Positions 48,729 to 60,075 of a DNA stretch of 64,000 nt are shown here, piece by piece (the first letter of the stretch is position 1; every line of letters starts with the position of its first letter). The position numbers were made by a program, and so were the translations under genes. The notes under the pieces are model-generated. The model had not been told where the DNA came from, ran no database searches, and saw only the letters and a list, made by a program, of their open reading frames with translations. The stretch is from Microcoleus sp. FACHB-672 (GTDB lineage: Bacteria; Cyanobacteriota; Cyanobacteriia; Cyanobacteriales; Oscillatoriaceae): contig NZ_JACJOU010000031.1 of assembly GCF_014695725.1 (NCBI RefSeq), positions 124,001-188,000 of the forward strand, written 5' to 3'.

Positions 48729-49817
48729 TCAACAGGGAAGCATCACAAAAACTGTGGTTTCTTGGTTAGGGACACTCTCAATATTTAATTGACCTCCGTG
48801 TAATTCTGCTAAGCGTTTAGAGAGGCTTAGCCCTAACCCCGTGCCTTGCTGTTCATATATCTTACGCTCAAATTGCATATAAGCTCCCACCTCAGCAATT
48901 TGTTCCGCTGTCATGCCTCGTCCCTGATTCGTAACAGACAGAATAAACTGGTTATTTTCTATACGGCTAGTAAGGTTAACCGGCGTGCCACTATCAGAAA
49001 ATTTAAAAGCGTTGTCCACCAGTTCTTCAACGAGCTTCATGAGCCGCTCAGATGAAATATTCGCTCTGACTTCTTGAAGCTCTAAGTGCAGATCCTCTGC
49101 GCGACAGACTTGTTTTGCGTGTGATACAGCAGCATTTTTAATGATGCTTTTGCCAAAGCTTGTCTCCTTGCTTCGCAGTTCTTTCACCCGCTCTGGATCA
49201 GTGGCCATTAGCTCTAGTTCGGCATAAAGCAAAAAATTTTGAGTGAGCCGGTATAACCGTTTTCCAGACAGATGGATATGCTCTAACATTTCCCGAACTT
49301 CTGCTGGTTCAAAAGAATTGAAATCCTCAAGAAGAAGTTCTGAAAAAGCGAGAATTCCATTGAGAGGAGTCCGCAGTTCGTGTGGCAACGACAGGATAAT
49401 ACTACTGCGTAATTTTTCGAGCTTTTGGGCTTGTTGGCGCTCAATCGCTGCTTGCTTTTCGAGCCGAGTGCTGATCGTTCTCAGCAGTTCTTTAATGGTA
49501 CAAGGCTTGGGTATATAATCGTCTGCGCCTAGTTCCATTCCCTTTCGAGTCTGTGCTTTGTCAGCAAAAGCAGTCAGGAAAATGAAGGGAATTGTTGCTG
49601 TCAGCGGATCTTTACGCAATGCTTCTAGTACGGCATAACCATCGATTTCTGGCATCATTACGTCGCACAAAATTAAATCCGGCAAATGTTCAGCAGCCAG
49701 TTGAAGGCCAATTTTGCCGTTTTCCGCTCCGATTGCTTTGAAATTTTCCGCCTCAAGCAATTCTCTAATGTTCTCGCGGATTTCACTCTCGTCTTCTATG
49801 ATTAAAATCTTAGTCAT
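48729..49817 (-). CDS. Hybrid receiver-histidine kinase
   Basis: This 362-residue protein starts with a receiver (residues 1-120; IIEDESE, LILCDVMMP, YIPKPC), then a HisKA with phospho-His in PHELRTPLNG (near 150), then an ATPase domain with N box EELVDNAFKFS and G2 GTGLGLSLS. The G1 box reads NQGRGM, with Asn where Asp usually begins DxGxG, so nucleotide handling may be altered. Receiver-first kinases can be driven by an upstream kinase. It is last in the minus-strand sensory operon, 182 bp after the GGDEF-EAL gene. Confidence 0.92.
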   Translation of the reverse strand: MTKILIIEDESEIRENIRELLEAENFKAIGAENGKIGLQLAAEHLPDLILCDVMMPEIDGYAVLEALRKDPLTATIPFIFLTAFADKAQTRKGMELGADDYIPKPCTIKELLRTISTRLEKQAAIERQQAQKLEKLRSSIILSLPHELRTPLNGILAFSELLLEDFNSFEPAEVREMLEHIHLSGKRLYRLTQNFLLYAELELMATDPERVKELRSKETSFGKSIIKNAAVSHAKQVCRAEDLHLELQEVRANISSERLMKLVEELVDNAFKFSDSGTPVNLTSRIENNQFILSVTNQGRGMTAEQIAEVGAYMQFERKIYEQQGTGLGLSLSKRLAELHGGQLNIESVPNQETTVFVMLPC

Positions 49818-49999
49818 TTGTCAGCTATCATTTGTCAGTTGGCAGGGTCGTAACCAAAGGGCAATCAATCTCTGAATCTGTCTTTTAAGTTATCCTATGA
49901 TCAGTTTTTCCGATATCATGAGCCGGCGCTGATTGCAAGTTGTCAGTTTGAAAAGTTTTACCATTAATCATCCCCTCATTCCTCATTACACACCATCCT

Positions 50000-51772
50000 T
50001 CAGATAGAATTTTGTGGAAGTTGCAATCGATTACCGCCGGCTAGTAATTTTTCAAACTCGGAACTTGGCACAGGCCGGCTAAAATAGTAACCTTGAATTT
50101 CATCACATTGATGCTGGTATAAGAAAGCCAGTTCGGCTTCCGTTTCTACCCCTTCTGCAATTACCTTTAAGTTTAGCTGATGAGCTAGTTGAATTAAAGC
50201 GGTCGTAATCGCTGTATTTTTAGCATCTTTGTGAAGATTACTGACAAAGCAACGGTCAATTTTCAAAATATCAAATGGAAATTGCCGCAAATAGCTTAAT
50301 GACGAGTAACCTGTGCCAAAATCATCGATCGCTATCTGCACTCCAATCGCTTTTAAAGCATCTAGCTGCCGGATTGCTACCTCTGGATTTTGCACAAGGG
50401 TGCCTTCAGTCAGCTCTAAATCTAAATACTCAGGATTGAAATTTGTTTGAGCTAATATCTCCACAACGCGTTGGCGCAAATTGAGTTGAGTGAATTGCCG
50501 GCCAGATAAATTCACCGCCACGCGTAAAGATTCATACCCATTAGCCTGCCACGCTTGGGTTTGCCGGCAAGCGGTACTTAAAACCCATTCCCCAATCGGT
50601 TCAATCAAGCCGGTTTCTTCAGCCAGCGGAATAAATTTTGCCGGCGAAATAGAGCCGCGAACTGGATGATGCCAACGCAAAAGTGCTTCGCAACCAACAA
50701 TTTTGCCGGTTTGCAGGCTCACTTGGGGCTGGTAGTGTAATGCAAGTTCTTCGCCTTCTAAGGCATAGCGTAGCTCGGTTTCTAAAGCTAGCTGATCAGA
50801 ATCTCCAACAGGGAAAGCCGGCGTGTAAAATTCACAACCATTTCCCCCCTGCTGCTTCACCTGATCCATCGCCTTTTTGGCATATTGTAGTAATTTATCT
50901 AGTTCGCTGCCATGACGAGGATAAAAAGCGACACCAATGCTAGGAGTAACAAAAACTTCTCTACCGTTTATAAAAAAAGGCCGGCATAAATTGTGTTGCA
51001 GAATTTGAACGGATTCGGCAGCCGCTTTTTTGTGTTCAACAGGTGCTAGAATAATGGCAAATTGATCGGCATTTAAGCGAGCAACTATGCTGCCCTCACT
51101 AACTCGATTTGTGAGCCGATCAGCCACAGCTTTCAGTAATAAATCACCAAACTCATATCCTAGGGTCTCATTAATTCGGCTAAAGCGGTCTAACCCTACA
51201 CACAAAATTGGTAGAGTTAAAGATTCCAAGTTTTTTGTTGGGGATTTATCAGGATCTTTTGCTGCAAGTGCAGCAATATTTTGATTGAATCGATCTTGTA
51301 AAGACAGCCGATTTGGTATCTTGGTTAAGCTGTCGAAATAAAGCAAATTATTCAGCCGAGTTGATGCTTGGTTTAGTTGTGTATCGTATTGCTTTTGCAA
51401 AGCAGCGGATTTTTTCAGCCGCGTTGCAATCGCCCTCAGCAGTTCATCTGGTGTACACGGCTTCGTAAGATAATCATCCGCACCTAGATCCATGCCGGCA
51501 CGCACATCAAGCCGGTCGGTTCTGGCCGTCAGAAATATAAAAGGAATGGTTGCCGTACTCGGATCATTTCTTAACGCATTCAAGACGCTGTGGCCATCCA
51601 TTTCCGGCATCATTACATCGCAGATAATTAAATCTGGCAATTCTTCGGTTGCCCTCTGAAAACCGATTAGCCCATTTTCCGCCCCGATGGCTTCAAACGC
51701 CTCTAACTCCAGCAGTTCTAAAATGTTTTCCCGGATTAATTCTTCATCTTCTATGACTAGAATTTTTGGCAT
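50000..51772 (-). CDS. Receiver-GGDEF-EAL protein, likely c-di-GMP phosphodiesterase
   Basis: This 590-residue paralogue of the protein at 6187-7944 has the same domain order: receiver (1-120), GGDEF-type (about 150-310) and EAL (about 325-575). The GGDEF signature is NADQF, so cyclase activity is improbable. The EAL motifs are intact (EALLRW, NLSGRQF, ELTEG, DDFGTGYSSL, AEGVETEAEL). It probably lowers cyclic di-GMP when its receiver is phosphorylated, perhaps by the kinases encoded with it. Confidence 0.93.
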   Translation of the reverse strand: MPKILVIEDEELIRENILELLELEAFEAIGAENGLIGFQRATEELPDLIICDVMMPEMDGHSVLNALRNDPSTATIPFIFLTARTDRLDVRAGMDLGADDYLTKPCTPDELLRAIATRLKKSAALQKQYDTQLNQASTRLNNLLYFDSLTKIPNRLSLQDRFNQNIAALAAKDPDKSPTKNLESLTLPILCVGLDRFSRINETLGYEFGDLLLKAVADRLTNRVSEGSIVARLNADQFAIILAPVEHKKAAAESVQILQHNLCRPFFINGREVFVTPSIGVAFYPRHGSELDKLLQYAKKAMDQVKQQGGNGCEFYTPAFPVGDSDQLALETELRYALEGEELALHYQPQVSLQTGKIVGCEALLRWHHPVRGSISPAKFIPLAEETGLIEPIGEWVLSTACRQTQAWQANGYESLRVAVNLSGRQFTQLNLRQRVVEILAQTNFNPEYLDLELTEGTLVQNPEVAIRQLDALKAIGVQIAIDDFGTGYSSLSYLRQFPFDILKIDRCFVSNLHKDAKNTAITTALIQLAHQLNLKVIAEGVETEAELAFLYQHQCDEIQGYYFSRPVPSSEFEKLLAGGNRLQLPQNSI

Positions 51773-51846
51773 ACTTTCAGCAAGTTATGAACAGCTTTAC
51801 AATTTGTTCTCTCAGCTTTAATTTTCCTTACTTTCCTCTAGAAACG

Positions 51847-52569
51847 CTACTCACTGGAATTAGAATTAGAATTAAAGGCTCTTATAAAATTCATTCTGCT
51901 AAGAAGCTTAGCATTTTCAGGGGTAAGCAAATCTTGCAAGCTAGCAAGCTGATTAATGATTGCGATTTCGCGGGCGCACTCTTCTTGTAAAATTTTGATA
52001 TAGCGGCTGCGAGCTTCTTCAGTCGGAGCAACTTTTAGCATTTGAATTGCCATCGTGATATTCGACAGCGGATCGCGCAACTCCTGAGAAAGGCTTTGTA
52101 GCAAATCTTCTGCGGTGGTGTTCATCCGCTGAAGCTCTCGCACTCTTTGCTGTAACCCTTTGGCTCGCTCGCGCTCAGCTGCGTATTGTTCCTTATAGAT
52201 AGCCTGTTTTTCTAGCCGAATGGAAATTGCTTTGAGCAATTCATTTGTAGTACATGGTTTCGTTAAATAATCGTCTGCCCCTAACTCCATACCTTTTCGC
52301 GTAGAACTTCTGTCATCTTTAGCAGTAAGAAAAATTAAGGGAATTGTCGCCGTCACCGGCTCGCTTCTTAAGGCTGTCAGCACAGCATAACCATCAAGGT
52401 TTGGCATCATAATGTCGCAAATAATTAAATCGGGCAAATATTCTCGCGCTAACTGAATGCCTAGCAAGCCATTACTTGCCTCAAGCGCCTCAAAATTTTC
52501 TGCATCTAATAATTCTAAAATGTTAGCGCGTACTGCTTCATCGTCTTCAATAACTAATATTTTTTTCAT
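51847..52569 (-). CDS. Response regulator with a degenerate DHp-like C-terminus
   Basis: This 240-residue paralogue of the gene at 4997-5704 has a receiver (1-120) with Asp52 (LIICDIMMP) and Lys in YLTKPC, a coiled coil (about 125-155), then SQELRDPLSNITMAI. Gln162 replaces the phospho-His of SHELRTPLSN-type DHp helices, and no ATPase domain follows. Conservation of this His-less module in both loci implies selection. It lies 23 bp from the upstream hybrid kinase. Confidence 0.9.
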   Translation of the reverse strand: MKKILVIEDDEAVRANILELLDAENFEALEASNGLLGIQLAREYLPDLIICDIMMPNLDGYAVLTALRSEPVTATIPLIFLTAKDDRSSTRKGMELGADDYLTKPCTTNELLKAISIRLEKQAIYKEQYAAERERAKGLQQRVRELQRMNTTAEDLLQSLSQELRDPLSNITMAIQMLKVAPTEEARSRYIKILQEECAREIAIINQLASLQDLLTPENAKLLSRMNFIRAFNSNSNSSE

Positions 52570-52592
52570 TTTCAGGGTGAGAAAGATCCAGA

Positions 52593-53696
52593 CTAAACAT
52601 GGTTTCTCATTGGCAGCGTCACCGTAAATGCAGTGCCGGCACCCACTTCACTTTGACACGATATCTGCCCACCGTGCAAGTCCACAGCTCTTTTAACAAT
52701 GGCCAATCCCAGGCCGGTTCCAGAAATAGTCCCAACGTTTGTTCCTCGGTGGAAAGTCTCAAACAGACGTTTTTGATCTTCTGCGGTAATGCCGATCCCT
52801 TTGTCTTCAATGCGAAAAACTGCCTGATCCTGCTCACAGGTGAGTTCAAACTTAATCGAGCTTTTTGGGGGAGAATACTTAATCGCATTAGAAAGCAAAT
52901 TACTGAGAATATGCCGCAACAGTTTTTCATCCATTTTGGCTTCAGTACAGTCCCCCAGGCAAATCCACTCAATGGGGTGCTGATAATCCGTGTTGAGTTG
53001 CATTTCTTCCATGATTTCTCCGCAAAATTTTTTCAACTCTACACCCGTTGGGTTAAATTCTAGTTTGCCCGCATCCGTTTGGCCAATCACCAAAATGTAA
53101 TCTAACATTTCAGTCATCTGTTTGATAGCGGTTTGAATTCGATGTAAATGAGTGACTTTTTTCTCCTCTGTCCATCGATCTCCGTAATTTTCTAGTAAAG
53201 TCGCAGAAAAAAGGATCGTAGACATGGGAGTGCGGAACTCATGGGAAACCATCGAAACAAAGCGAGACTTCAGCTCATTCAGTTCTTTTTCTTTTTCCAA
53301 GGCTTTACGAACTTCTGCTTCCGCCTTGGCTCTTGCCAAAGCAATTTCTAAAGTGGTGTGTAAATCTCTTTCTTCAAAAGGCTTGACGATATAGCCAAAA
53401 GGTTTAGTTTTTTTTGCTTTTTCTAAAGTTGCTTCATCCGTATGAGAAGTTAAAAATACCACAGGAACCTGATAGAGCGTGCGAATCACTTCAGCCGCTT
53501 CCACGCCATCCATTTTTCCTTGCAGCATAATATCCATCAAGACTAAATCTGGATGAATTTCTGCAACTTTCTCTATCGCTTTTTCTCCCGAAGAAACAAT
53601 AGCCTCCACCGCATATCCCAAATTCTTTAAACTATTTTTTAGATCGAGAGCAATAATTCTCTCGTCTTCGACGATAATAATACTTGCCTTAGCCAT
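52593..53696 (-). CDS. Hybrid receiver-histidine kinase
   Basis: This 367-residue protein has a receiver of the LytT/PatA-like type (IIVEDERIIALDLKNSL, Asp in LVLMDIML, Lys in YIVKPF), a short coiled coil, HisKA with SHEFRTPMS (near 155), and an ATPase domain with NLLSNAIKYSP, DKGIGI and GTGLGLAIV. The kinase half closely resembles that of the first kinase at 928-5019 (shared DAGKL-FNPT/FHPT and HRGTNVG/HRAKNVG regions), so the two loci share ancestry. It follows the giant kinase by 16 bp and may receive phosphate from it. Confidence 0.93.
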   Translation of the reverse strand: MAKASIIIVEDERIIALDLKNSLKNLGYAVEAIVSSGEKAIEKVAEIHPDLVLMDIMLQGKMDGVEAAEVIRTLYQVPVVFLTSHTDEATLEKAKKTKPFGYIVKPFEERDLHTTLEIALARAKAEAEVRKALEKEKELNELKSRFVSMVSHEFRTPMSTILFSATLLENYGDRWTEEKKVTHLHRIQTAIKQMTEMLDYILVIGQTDAGKLEFNPTGVELKKFCGEIMEEMQLNTDYQHPIEWICLGDCTEAKMDEKLLRHILSNLLSNAIKYSPPKSSIKFELTCEQDQAVFRIEDKGIGITAEDQKRLFETFHRGTNVGTISGTGLGLAIVKRAVDLHGGQISCQSEVGAGTAFTVTLPMRNHV

Positions 53697-53712: not shown

Positions 53713-56700
53713 TTAATTTATTCCAAATTTAATTATAAACTTAGTCCCATGAGCGGTATTTAAATCAATGCTTCCCCCAAGTTGCTCAGCCAAATTAAAA
53801 ACCAACTGCAACCCTAATGAATCGGTTTGCTCTAAATCAAAATCTGAAGGCAAACCTACTCCATTATCGCTGATCAGTAAACTATATTCATTTTCTCTTT
53901 CTAAAGAAAATTCTACACAAATTTCCCCACACAAATCGGGGGTAAATGCGTATTTAATCGAATTAGAAACCAATTCATTAATGATCAACCCACAAGGAAT
54001 TGCTGTATCAACATCAAGGGAAATATTATCAACCCTTAATTTCAACTCAATCGCCTGGGAAGAAACTCCATAGGAACTAAATAAATTTCCTAAGAGGTTG
54101 CGGATGTAGTCGGATAAATCAATTTTAGCTAAATCTGAGGAGCGATACAATTTTTCATGAATCAGCGCCATTGAACGAACCCGGTTGTAGCTGTCCTTAA
54201 ACAGCGCCTGTGCCTCAATATCCTTAAGGTATGACGATTGCAACTTAAGCAAACTGGAAATAATCTGCAAATTGTTTTTAACGCGGTGGTGAATTTCTTT
54301 AAGCAGCACCTCTTTCTCTTTCAGGGAAGCTTTTAGCTGCTCCTGTGCCTGTTGGCGTTCGGTAATATCAATTGCCACTGAAACAGCAGCAGCGCCTTCC
54401 TGGTATTTCTGAGCAGCGATCAGGTAACTGCGCCGGCAACCATTCACTTGTGCCTCAATCACTTGGTTGGCGGCTAGCTTAGAACCGGCAAAAAACTGAC
54501 GCATAAATTCACCAAACTCCGAGCCACCCTCAAAAAAGCCGAGTTCTTGACCGGCAAACGCTTCTGGAGACAAATTAACAGAAGCAGCCAGATGCCGGTT
54601 CACGCCGAGATATTGCAAATCTGAACTGATCCAAGAAACAAAACCTGGCACAGCATCTAAAACCGCACGCAATTGAGCCTTAGCAGCCTGTAGCGCTTCC
54701 TCTGCTTGCTTGCGTTCAGTGATGTCTGTTCCAATCCCAATAAAGTGAGTGAGAGTACCGTGATCATCATAAATGGGGGCAAGACTTAACTCATTCCAAA
54801 ATAAAGATCCATCTTTGCGGTAGTTGCGTAAAACGACGCTGCACTCTTGCCCTTGTTTAAGCGCACGCCGCAGTGCTATTAAACCGACTTGATTCGTCTC
54901 CCTGCCTTGCAGAAACCGGCAGTTTAGTCCAAGGACTTCTGCGGCGCTGTAACCCGTCATGCGCTCGAAAGCAGGATTAACATAAATCAGCGGCATATCC
55001 GGTAATCTGGCATCGGAAATCGCAATTCCATTGCTGCTGGCTGCAATTGCCCGTTCCTGTATTTTTAATATCTCCTCGACCTGCTTGCGCGCACTGATGT
55101 CGCGACAGACACAAATTAACCCACCATCTGCAATCACAGTCAGCGACACGTCTGCTAAAAATGTCGTGCCATCCCGTTTCTTGCCCGTTGCTTCTCCTTG
55201 CCAATTTCCCTTTTGCCAAAGTCCGGGTAAAATATCGGACTCAAAACGCTTAATTTCATCTGGATAATACATTTCTTGCCATCCTTTGCCGGCAAGTTGA
55301 CTCACGCTGTCATATCCAAATATTTTGACGTGAGCCTCATTCATGTAGATATATTGACCTTCACTATTAAGAATAGCTATACCATCCATTGCCGCTTCCA
55401 CGGCAGCTAACTGTCGCTGTAACGTCTCCTCAGCCTGCTTGCGCTCGGTAATGTCCATCACCACCCCGCTCATTCCCACAGGCCGGCCTGTGGGGTGGCG
55501 CAGAGCCTGGCCCTTAGCGGCAACCCAGTGGATGCTACCATCTGGCCAAAGAATGCGATGTTCGACATCACAGGATTTTCCTTCCTCCAAACTGCGAGAG
55601 ATCGCCTGATTCAGATACTCGCGATCCTCTGGATGGATAGGATTGAAATAAGCCTCCCAAGTTCCAGGGAATGAGCCACTGGCAAACCCAAAAATTGATT
55701 CGGTTTTCTGGGACCAAGTTATCTTGGCCGTTTCAATATCCCAATCCCAAGTCCCCATCTGGGCGGTCTTGAGAGCCAGCCGCAGCCGCAACTCACTTTC
55801 ACGCAGCGCCTCTTCTGCTTGCTTGCGCTCGGTGACATCGCGAGAAACAGTTACAAGTGCCTCCACCTCCTCGGTGTCTGGGTGGCGGACACTCCTGCCG
55901 GTGGATTCAAACCAGATGTAACGGTTGTCTTTGCAGCGAATGCGATAAGTGACGGTATAGGTGTCCGGCTGCTCTAGCAAGTTGGATTGGCACGTTTCGA
56001 TCACCGGCACATCTTCTGGATGGAAAAACTCATAAGCGGAGTGGCCCACCAGTTCCTCCGGCTCGTATCCCAGTAGTGTGCGGCACGCCGGCGAGGTGTA
56101 GAGATAAACGCCCTCTGGGGTATGCCGGCTAATCATATCAGTCGCATGATCTGCCATCAACCGATAGCGTTCCTCGCTTTCTCGCAGAGCCGCCTCTGCT
56201 TGTTTGCGGTCGGTAACATCACGATCCATACCGCGATAACCCCGGAACACCCCATCTGCATCAAAAACCGGCGCTCCACTGGTTTCAAGAATAACCTGCC
56301 GGCCATCTTTGTGAATGTTTGTGTTTTCCACACAGACTAAGGGCTGTTGAGTTGCAACCAGCGGCCCAATAATGGTTGAAACGCGAAACGCTTCTGGTGG
56401 AGGCATTAAGTCAAAAGGTGTTTTACCCAAAACTTCCTCAGGTTCGTAGCCCAACAAATCGCGCACTTTAGGACTGGCGTATGTGTAGACAGCATTTTCA
56501 TCAATTTCCCACACCCAGTCGCTAGTCGTTTCAATCAAATTGCGAAAGCGATCTTCTGAGTCTCGCAGTGCTTCTTCCACCTGCAATTTATCGGCAATTT
56601 CCCTTCGTAATTGTTCGTTCGTCTCGCTCAACTCTGCTGTGCGCTCTTGCACTCGCATTTCTAACTCTTGATTGACTTTTTGCAGCGCTTCTTCTGCTTG

Positions 56701-59388
56701 TTTAATAACCGTAACGTCCTCATAAGTGCCGAGAATTCCCACAACATTGCCGGCACTGTCATGCAGGGGAATTTTATTCGTATCTGCCCAAGATTCTTTG
56801 CCATCCGCTTGACGCTGGGTTTCGATGATATGAAATTCGGGCGTATCGGTTCCCATCACGCGAGCATCGCACTCGCGGAACCAGTCGGATTCCTCTTTTT
56901 TCCAGGCTAAATCGTAATCTGTTTTGCCGACAATCTCTTCAGGCGTATCAACACCGGCAACTCGTGCAAAGTTACGGTTGCAACCCAAATAAACAGAATT
57001 TCTATCTTTCCAGAAAATCAACTGCGGAATATTATCCATCACCAATTGCAGCATCTGCTTTGACTCTTGCATTGCTTTCTCAGTTAGCTTGCGCTCGGTG
57101 ATATCGTTGCAAACAGCGAGGATATAGCGTGATTGACCATCTGAAGATATCAGCGGCTTTTTAATAGTCTGGAACCAGCGAATTTCTCCATTCGGGCTAC
57201 TGACGGTTTCTTCTGGAATAATCTTGGGCTGCAACGCGCTCATTACTTGTTGATCGGCAGCCAAAAACTCCTCGACTTCTGCGGCATTCGGATTAAAATC
57301 TGCATCTTTTTTGCCGAGTAAATTGTCAACCGTTGTTCCATAAATATCGGCAAGGGCTTGGTTAACTAAAGTAAACTTTCCTTCCCAATCTTTGACAAAA
57401 ATTAAATTAGGGTTGGTATCAATGACATGACGCAGAAACTCTTGTTGTTCTTTTAAAGCCAGTTCTGCCCGCTTGCGTTTGGTAATATTCAGGACGGTGC
57501 CTTCGCAGTAAAGCAGTGCGCCCTCGGCATTCCTTACAGCATGGGCATTCTCGGAAATCCAAATGATGCTGCCGTCAGCGCGATAAACTTGAGACTCAAA
57601 CTCGGATACGCTTCCGTACTCTTGTATCAGTGCCATGAACTCGTCGCGTCGCGCTGGATTGACGTAGAGTTGCCGTCCAATGTCTGTGAGGTTGGCAATG
57701 AGTTCTGCCGGCGAGTTGTAGCCATAAATGCCGGCGAGGCTAGGATTGGCGCTGATGTAGCTTCCATCTGGTGTGGTTTGAAAGATGCCCTCAATCGCAT
57801 TCTCGAAGATGCTGCGATATTTGGCTTCGCTTTGTTGCAAGGACCTTTCCACCCGTTGTCTCTCCCGCTGTTCCGCTTGCACCTGTTCACTGAGTTGGAC
57901 TTGCTCAATGGCGAGGGTGCAGCGATCTCCAATTAACTTGACAAACTTCACTTCATCTGAATCCCAGATTCGTTCACGATCGCACTGATGCAAGGCGATC
58001 TCACCTACATAAGATTGCTGCCCGATCAGTGGCACAATCAAAATCGCGCGAATGCCGCACTCGTCAGCAGATTGCTGAAGTGCCGGTGCTAGCGAGTCAT
58101 CAATGCGCGGCAAAATGAGGGGTTCGCCTTGAGCTAAGGTGTGGTGATAATTCCCAGAAAAATTACAATGGCTGCCGGCAAGACTTTCCGGTTGGGTTGC
58201 CTCTTCTGACATCTCGCAAGTCGCCATTTGAGTGCGGGAATCTGGCCAAAAAATCAGGCAACGGCTAGCTTCAAGCGCTTTTCGCAGCTGGTTGGCAGTT
58301 GTTTGCAAAATTTCATCCAAGGGAACTTGCTTACGGACAGCTTTGCTAATAGACTCAAGTATCCGGATCTGCTGGGCTTGTCGCTTCAGTTTTTGAGATT
58401 CTTGCTGAATTTGCCGGAAGTTTGCTTCAGCTAGCGCTGTGCGCTTTTGCATTTGTTTTATAAATTCGTTGTTGCGACGCAGTAAAAGTTCAATTCTTTT
58501 AGGTTGAAGTTGATCACCGGCAGGCTGAGGGGTTTTTACATTTTTGTACGTTTGCGCCGGCTCAAAAACTTGTAGCAAGTCGATCGCTGTAACAGTCCCC
58601 AGCAAAATTTCCTGAGTATTTTCTCGCGCCGTGACAAAAACCGGCTGCCGGTGCTGTAATTGCTGATACGCTGCCAGCAGAGAATCTTGTGGGGTTAGGG
58701 TATTTGCCGGCATTCTCATCAGTCCACAAGCCGGTGTTGTGGCAAGATCGAGCAATTGCGCCCCAGCTTGCACGATGTCCCACTCTGTAACAATTCCCAG
58801 TAGGATGGGTGGCTGGATATCTGCCGACTCAGTTTCTGATGAGATCGCAACCCAACTGACTTGATGTTCTATCATCAGTTGGGCAATCTTCTGCACCGGC
58901 GCATTCATTGGCGCGGTTATGATCTGCCTTGACATCACCGCTTCAACCGGCACCCCATTGAGGAGCTCAACTGCCGGCAGAACTTGCAGAATGGTTTCCC
59001 CAGTGATCGCGCCGATGAATGCACCAGAATTGTCCAAAACCGGCAGGTGATCAACCCGATGCCGGTGTAATAAGGATACGGCAGTGGAAAGATCTTGATT
59101 GTCAGTCAGCGTCAGGGTAACTGCCGGTTGAGTGATCGCTTCGCCAAGTTTTAGCTGTGCTAAATTTATCCCCCTGGTAATTAACCTCAGTGCATCTCGC
59201 TGGGTGAAAATGCCAAGCGGAAGCGCTTGAGGGTTGAACTGTGCCGGCAAAACTTGTTCGGGTTGCTGAGATTGACTCATCAGTACCAAGACATCTAGCA
59301 CCGACGTGTCAGCGGCAACGCGCAAAGGATGCCGATTAATTGCCGGTTCTATGGTGGGCCAATTGAAAGACAGCTTGTTCAGTTGCAT
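53713..59388 (-). CDS. Giant CBS-GAF-PAS/LOV sensor histidine kinase
   Basis: This protein has 1,891 residues if started at ATG 59388 (a GTG at 59391 is the alternative). Domain order: four CBS motifs in two pairs (about 10-290), a coiled coil, a GAF domain (about 350-510), then nine PAS-type units (about 525-1710), and a HisKA_2-type DHp with phospho-His in [11 protein letters not shown] plus an ATPase domain ([26 protein letters not shown]). The eighth PAS (about 1460-1578) is a LOV domain: GLNCRFLQG with the flavin-adduct Cys1490, and [13 protein letters not shown]. The glutamine normally found in FIGVQ is glycine (FIGIG, Gly1553). CBS domains usually bind adenosine nucleotides, GAF and LOV bind small molecules or flavin, so it may combine energy status and blue light. 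It is first in an operon with three receivers and another kinase. Confidence 0.92.
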
Positions 59389-60075
59389 CACTCGTTTTTT
59401 GTCCTGTTTTTAAGAGAACTCATTTATCTATTTGTTGTCATCGGTATTAATAAGTAACTTTGAGATCGGGGCTTTTTGTAATGTACGCAACAAAACCCAC
59501 AATTAGCTGTTATGCAAATAATTTTATTGATTGAAAAGAGGGGCAAAAGGGGTGAGGGATAGAAAGACTGAGGAATGCTGAGATATTGCTCTAAATTGGC
59601 TGCACGTTAGCTTATGGGGCAATTATTTGCCGACAAGCTTTTCAGCCGACACGATGCCGGCTAGAAATATTACACCCTCTCTAGGATTTTTATATTTCCA
59701 GAGAATTTGCTTGAAAAATTAGTGAAAATAGGCAAATTTGAAGTTTCTTGGCACAGATTTTTCTAAAAATCACAGAAATCTGTTGCCATCATTACTCAAA
59801 AAAATTATTGATATGTTCTACCATATCTCAGTTTTTCGGAAATGGTTGTGCCGGCAGGAAACAATGAGTTAAGTTGATGTAAAGAAAAGCGGTATTTTGT
59901 ATATTCAAATTCACAATATTTATTTAATAAAAACTTAGAGAGCAGCAGGATAGCGGATGAGGGATAGCGGATGAAGTGAGAATTCCTGCTTTTGCTGTAT
60001 CAAACTCTACCGAACGAAACGGGTAAACCGGCTAAGGTTTGTAAAGAACTAAATTGTGATCTAGGCTACACCACC
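59389..60075. other. Intergenic region upstream of ntcB
   Basis: AT-rich, with no gene. It contains the promoters of the minus-strand giant kinase and of ntcB. A dyad CAGATTT...AAATCTG (59755-59783) is the clearest structure and could be a LysR or other operator. I found no GTAN8TAC site. Confidence 0.45.

Follow-up and report, generated by a model that had tools for sequence, protein, structure and literature searches.

A LOV domain with glycine at the relay-glutamine position in a cyanobacterial sensor histidine kinase, and its glutamine-less relatives

Background

Can a LOV domain that retains the cysteine forming the flavin adduct, and has lost the glutamine that normally relays adduct formation to the rest of the protein, still work as a light sensor? 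The question is raised by one domain of a large sensor kinase encoded in a 64,000-nucleotide stretch of the genome of Microcoleus sp. FACHB-672 (hereafter the window), for which the original prediction proposed either a natural variant with altered photochemistry or a decayed sensor. According to the available text of PMC9098866, in which the LOV-deltaQ class was described in 2022 (Dietler et al.), such receptors count about 350 natural members, one of them tested and light-responsive, and several LOV receptors can do without Gln. In YF1 each of the 19 possible replacements of the relay Gln was made, and the response was lost with Pro, His, Trp, Tyr and Arg alone (PMC9098866), so that Gly would, by exclusion from these listed non-responders, preserve it. 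With a natural Met variant, 145 Miller units were measured in the dark and 30 in blue light, loss of Gln moved the absorption by ~8 nm to the blue, and Q123L slowed recovery tenfold (PMC9098866), the authors proposing water as a stand-in for the Gln side chain. The earlier remark that some LOV proteins without this Gln signal is borne out by the ~350 natural members and by the light response that most YF1 replacements keep. Such a water relay is in line with the fluorescent LOV variants Q148K and Q489K, whose pocket becomes open to solvent and whose spectrum is blue-shifted (available text of PMC8131319). Natural loss of Gln was not seen in the accessible parts of PMC12202551, on archaeal LOV proteins, or of the review PMC4844311.

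Results

The sensor kinase and its gene neighbourhood

Pfam matches and reading by eye give the kinase a CBS pair, a GAF domain, many PAS-like segments, the LOV domain, a further PAS, HisKA_2 and HATPase_c. Residues are numbered here from the GTG codon, which yields Cys1491 and Gly1554; counted from the ATG at codon 2, they become Cys1490 and Gly1553. The main features are the following:

53713-59391, minus strand: sensor kinase ORF of 1892 aa, frame open throughout
57907-58320, minus strand: GAF domain, from the family scan
54322-54669, minus strand: PAS-like segment between LOV and the kinase part, boundaries set by eye
54070-54297, minus strand: HisKA_2, with a 10-residue motif holding the His of the phosphoacceptor box, from the family scan
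53725-53988, minus strand: HATPase_c, with 26 residues of motif sequence, from the family scan
52593-53696, minus strand: receiver and kinase protein, next gene downstream of the sensor kinase, an adjacency kept in the sister species

By its Pfam scores (104.5 bits for HisKA_2 against a cut-off of 22.3, and 38 bits for HATPase_c against 26.4), the protein is a HisKA_2 histidine kinase, and the HWE_HK profile stayed under its cut-off (21.9 bits against 22.8). No Cys-His chromophore motif was seen by eye in the GAF domain. The LOV domain had been counted as the eighth PAS of the protein, which agrees with reading by eye, seven PAS-like segments preceding it and one following it, whereas family scans leave the number unsettled, with eight stretches matched by TIGR00229 and seven by PAS_9. 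The genome as a whole is very rich in such domains: the PAS/LOV segment has at least 137 matches in it with E values of up to 1e-3 (150 of the 280 candidates scored).

Downstream of the kinase, positions 48729-53696 of the window hold four receiver-domain genes in a row, found in the same order in the sister species; one of them carries GGDEF and EAL, as read by eye. About 1,033 bp (window 58625-59657), which in the window cover the beginning of the kinase with its CBS portion, are absent from the sister species' kinase (L104 4079-4083), where the flanks meet within a few bases, which may reflect a deletion there or an insertion in the window.

A LOV domain with the adduct cysteine and without the relay glutamine

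The features of the LOV domain, all on the minus strand, were located as follows:

54682-55065, minus strand: LOV domain, residues 1443-1570, from the PAS_9 match, solved-structure matches and the predicted model
54904-54930, minus strand: flavin-adduct motif GLNCRFLQG, from direct translation
54919-54921, minus strand: Cys1491 (TGC), the adduct-forming position, from direct translation
54787-54825, minus strand: 13-residue motif with two flavin-binding Asn, from direct translation
54709-54729, minus strand: TDITERK, DIT-type junction into the next coiled coil, from the sequence, its role taken from the available text of PMC9098866
54730-54744, minus strand: FIGIG motif, from direct translation
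54730-54732, minus strand: Gly1554 (GGA), the relay-Gln position, from translation and alignment

Direct translation confirmed the adduct motif, the 13-residue Asn motif and FIGIG as first read. The nine LOV signature residues (G, N, C, R, F, L, Q, N, N) are all present, and the relay Gln of strand I-beta is absent, Gly1554 occupying the position of Q513 in AsLOV2 and Q123 in YtvA. A sequence search of the PDB with the LOV segment returned LOV proteins as best matches (7r5n, E 1.7e-38; 8a3u; 9vf7), in which the alignments pair the glycine of the window with Gln. The predicted model of the domain (pLDDT 94.7, pTM 0.85) resembles 9vf7 most closely among solved LOV domains (Z 21.8, rmsd 1.2 over 128 residues), and the 50 structure matches listed are LOV proteins with Z 18.4-21.8, suggesting a PAS fold of the solved-LOV type. 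NCBIfam LOV models were matched with scores short of the thresholds set for whole proteins (YtvA_fam, 147.8 bits against 250, with the segment only), as is expected of a LOV domain in a different architecture.

The published LOV-deltaQ filter retains domains with at least eight of the nine signature residues and no Gln (PMC9098866, as given in its available text). The window domain passes it with nine of nine and Gly, and since Gly1554 stands in place of the relay Gln, the domain is assigned by its sequence to LOV-deltaQ instead of canonical LOV. With Cys1491 in place, it falls outside the Cys-less LOV-like proteins.

Rarity of glycine at the relay position

Aligned to 25 relatives, the domain is the only one with Gly in the relay column, which holds Gln in 23 of them, Glu in L104 and Leu in L119. 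The original prediction of a LOV domain with its adduct Cys and no relay Gln holds, the glycine lying at the Gln position of FIGVQ in an alignment free of internal gaps; an alignment slip behind the missing Gln was ruled out, gaps occurring at the ends only.

A wider sample of LOV-like domains was drawn from the own genome, 3 genomes of the genus, 8 of the family, 148 + 388 of the order, 386 of the phylum and 80 named loci, these sets overlapping. After 24 identical stretches were collapsed and matches of at least 150 bits kept, 171 domains remained; they were selected for resemblance to the window domain, and their frequencies do not stand for LOV domains in general. The relay position of this sample is Gln in 159 domains, Leu in four, His in four, and Ile, Ser, Glu and Gly in one each, the sole Gly being that of the window, and the adduct position is Cys in 152. 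Both Cys and Gln are found in 143 of the 171, Cys without Gln in nine, Gln without Cys in 16 and neither in three, the two losses showing no significant association (Fisher p 0.13). Five of the 12 Gln-less domains of the sample fall in the genus of the window and in genus g4 of the same family.

Among these 171, the four domains with His (L178, L200, L247 and L019) have their Cys intact; His at this position abolished the photocycle in YF1 (PMC9098866, available text).

Replacement of the relay residue in close relatives

The syntenic ortholog in the sister species G001, a kinase 89% identical over 1621 aa with the same neighbour genes in the same order, carries Glu (codon GAA) at the relay position. 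Genus g4 provides three LOV domains 73-76% identical to that of the window, with Leu and Cys in G005, Leu and Asp for Cys in G007, and Ile and Ser for Cys in G006; the adduct Cys is absent from relatives L120 and L121, the latter being a Leu and Asp domain. The kinases of G005 and G006 align by BLAST over most of the window kinase at ~34% and have similar receiver genes beside them. In two other members of the family, G003 and G004, both Gln and Cys are present. The third genome of the genus, sister species G002, yielded no such LOV domain, its best match being a 72% paralog with Gln and Cys, and the downstream receiver protein found no match there at a cut-off of E 1e-120.

The relay codon is CAA in all eight Gln-bearing relatives whose codons were read, and GGA, GAA, CTA, TTA and ATA in the five Gln-less domains, a series that fits CAA>GAA>GGA and CAA>CTA>TTA/ATA. 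Two changes separate CAA from GGA, passing either through GAA, the codon of the sister species, or through an Arg codon; CTA can be reached from CAA by a single change, as can TTA and ATA from CTA.

A tree of LOV and kinase parts (22 rows, with the Cys and Gln columns taken out, and, like the 16-row tree, without L121, Leu and Asp, whose contig ends before the kinase) gathered the kinases of the window, G001, G005 and G006 with eight Gln-bearing ones in one supported group of 12. The best trees place the window/G001 pair and the genus g4 pair apart, and at least two changes at the relay position and three at the Cys position are needed on the 22-row tree. Forcing the four Gln-less kinases together was not rejected (AU p 0.068 with 22 rows and 0.155 with 16 rows), and a LOV-only tree (93 rows, 124 columns) was poorly resolved on a single versus a double loss of Gln. 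Within genus g4, the simplest order would be that Gln was lost first and Cys later, because all three domains are without Gln while one keeps Cys. Gln-first is no general rule, since 16 domains have Gln without Cys, the reverse order being common elsewhere. The authors of PMC9098866 report having no evidence as to which of Gln and Cys was acquired first (available text).

Constraint on the Gln-less domains

Conservation of 95% or more across the 143 intact domains was found at 26 positions, Cys and Gln included, and the other 24 were scored for deviations. None was found in the domains of the window, G001, G005 and G006, and one in that of G007 (T37A). As controls, 94 of the 143 intact domains also have none, and of 23 other altered domains four have none and 19 have one to five, L211 and L226 deviating at four and five of the 24 with both Asn lost. 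This count speaks against decay but does not single out the group of the window as special. At 25 pocket positions mapped by AsLOV2 numbering, the five Gln-less domains carry residues common in the intact set, save at the Cys and Gln positions and at G455 (Lys in G005), and the two Asn, the motif Arg and the motif Gln are kept in all five. One further residue of the window domain is unseen in the 143 intact domains, an Ile at segment position 63, in a variable stretch.

Between the window and G001, both of which have the Cys and both Asn, dN/dS is 0.30 for LOV (bootstrap 0.11-0.66) and 0.19 for the whole shared part (0.15-0.22), LOV ranking highest by point estimate among the regions compared, although the intervals overlap. 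Between G005 and G006, it is 0.14 for LOV (0.06-0.27) and 0.26 for the whole (0.22-0.32). In both pairs the LOV domain is therefore kept by selection, the relay residue being free, and in genus g4 the Cys too. General decay of the LOV domain was rejected on the 24-position count and dN/dS, which narrows the alternative first posed between altered photochemistry and a decayed sensor: its second half is unsupported in the window (no deviation at 24 positions; dN/dS 0.30, 0.11-0.66).

Discussion

Probable signalling without glutamine and its alternatives

The reading that we favour, and hold to be probable with some reserve, is that the window domain is a true LOV-deltaQ, capable of flavin binding and adduct formation, which in the absence of Gln still signals, probably weakly. 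It draws on sequence and predicted fold, on a pocket whose residues are intact and on purifying selection, from which we infer flavin binding, adduct formation, a water relay and control of the kinase in this protein. Blue light would drive formation of the Cys1491-flavin adduct and protonation of flavin N5; glycine at the relay position would offer no side chain able to turn, and a water in the vacated space would pass the change of hydrogen bonding to strands I-beta and A-beta, from where TDITERK and the coiled coil would carry the signal into the following PAS and on to the HisKA_2 kinase. As Gly leaves most room for water, this route is taken as the likeliest for the window domain. The absorption would be expected a few nm to the blue, with a changed (usually slower) dark recovery and a weaker light effect on the kinase. 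Against this reading stands the dN/dS of LOV between the window and G001, whose point estimate exceeds those of the other regions, albeit with overlapping intervals. The three genus g4 kinases without Gln, two of them also without Cys, weigh against it too, and light sensing may be fading in the group.

That last observation opens a possible though doubtful alternative, in which the group is shifting from blue-light sensing to light-independent flavin sensing of redox or oxygen, Gln being lost first, Cys later and the pocket kept. The Leu and Cys, Leu and Asp, and Ile and Ser states of three kinases in one genus fit it, as do the other conserved positions kept in these domains (0, 1 and 0 of 24 deviating) and the low LOV dN/dS of 0.14 (0.06-0.27) in a pair that itself differs at the Cys; natural Cys-less LOV-like proteins, moreover, respond to chemical or photoreduction (PMC4682037, available text). 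However, Cys is retained in the window and in the sister species, the sample holds more domains that lack Cys alone (16 of 171) than domains that lack Gln alone (nine of 171), and the two losses lack significant association. If the group of the window is on such a path, it would be at an early point, with Cys still present. A fuller version, which we rate as rather unlikely, would see here a natural series in which a blue-light LOV is being converted into a light-independent flavin sensor within one cyanobacterial kinase group, the relay Gln going first along the two codon paths and Cys later while selection keeps the flavin pocket, the reverse of the published derivation of LOV from redox flavoproteins. 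Continued light sensing would not follow from the sequence in any case, and a change of use may have occurred, because relatives in the same kinase group have lost Cys too. It is unlikely that the domain is a structural leftover that holds the dimer and passes on the signals of neighbouring PAS segments without sensing of its own, its Gly being drift. Five codons in five relatives are what an unconstrained site would give, and the many PAS segments of the protein could do the sensing, yet the residues that serve only a flavin pocket (two Asn, Arg and motif Gln) are kept in all five domains, whereas other altered LOV domains of the sample, such as L211 and L226, lose such residues. A sequencing or assembly error, suggested by the occurrence of Gly in a single genome, is very improbable, as CAA would have to change at two bases, the sister species already carries GAA at a distance of a single change, the reading frame is uninterrupted and the flanking sequence agrees.

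Relation to known systems and significance

Like the LOV-deltaQ receptors of PMC9098866, the window domain combines the adduct Cys and the signature residues with a missing relay Gln; unlike them, it has Gly, the main text of that paper naming Leu, Ile, Ser, Thr, His and Cys, plus Met in the tested protein. A word search of this main text found neither glycine nor Gly, and a whole-word search for the stem only, a weak test, found no mention of cyanobacteria. YF1 and its Q123 variants similarly feed a histidine kinase from LOV through a coiled coil with the relay Gln replaced, but YF1 is engineered and its LOV adjoins the kinase, whereas the window protein has an extra PAS in between and a HisKA_2-type kinase. 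The Cys-less LOV-like proteins of PMC4682037 (available text) share the LOV fold and flavin pocket and miss a photochemical residue, which makes them relevant to L120 and L121, while the window protein retains its Cys. In the CagFbFP Q148 variants (PDB 6ywi, Q148E, and others), the same Gln is replaced in solved structures, Q148E matching the Glu of the sister species; these variants are engineered, with Cys removed too, and no Gly variant was found among the matches listed. In the openly accessible literature, a search for the named variants Q123G, Q148G, Q489G and Q513G with LOV found no published test of a Gly variant.

Gln-less LOV receptors are an already known class, of which the window domain is a member with a residue not found described in the literature searched, including the main text of PMC9098866. 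To this, our analysis adds the lone Gly among 171 domains and the stepwise change of the relay residue in close relatives, two of them without Cys. If the window domain signals, the smallest possible residue would join the natural list and the water-relay model would be tested, because Gly leaves most room; if it does not, it would be a commonplace example of a sensor put to a new use. What deserves the attention of specialists is the natural series of five close domains (Gly, Glu, Leu, Leu and Ile with Cys, Cys, Cys, Asp and Ser), which differ chiefly at two positions and form a ready panel in which the contribution of each residue and a possible order of loss can be asked. The own genome also encodes, on contig C7 (L004 1501-1866; likewise L098 and L103 in the two sister species), a paralogous LOV-like domain that keeps Gln and has Leu for Cys and Leu for the second Asn, the losses being in opposite order.
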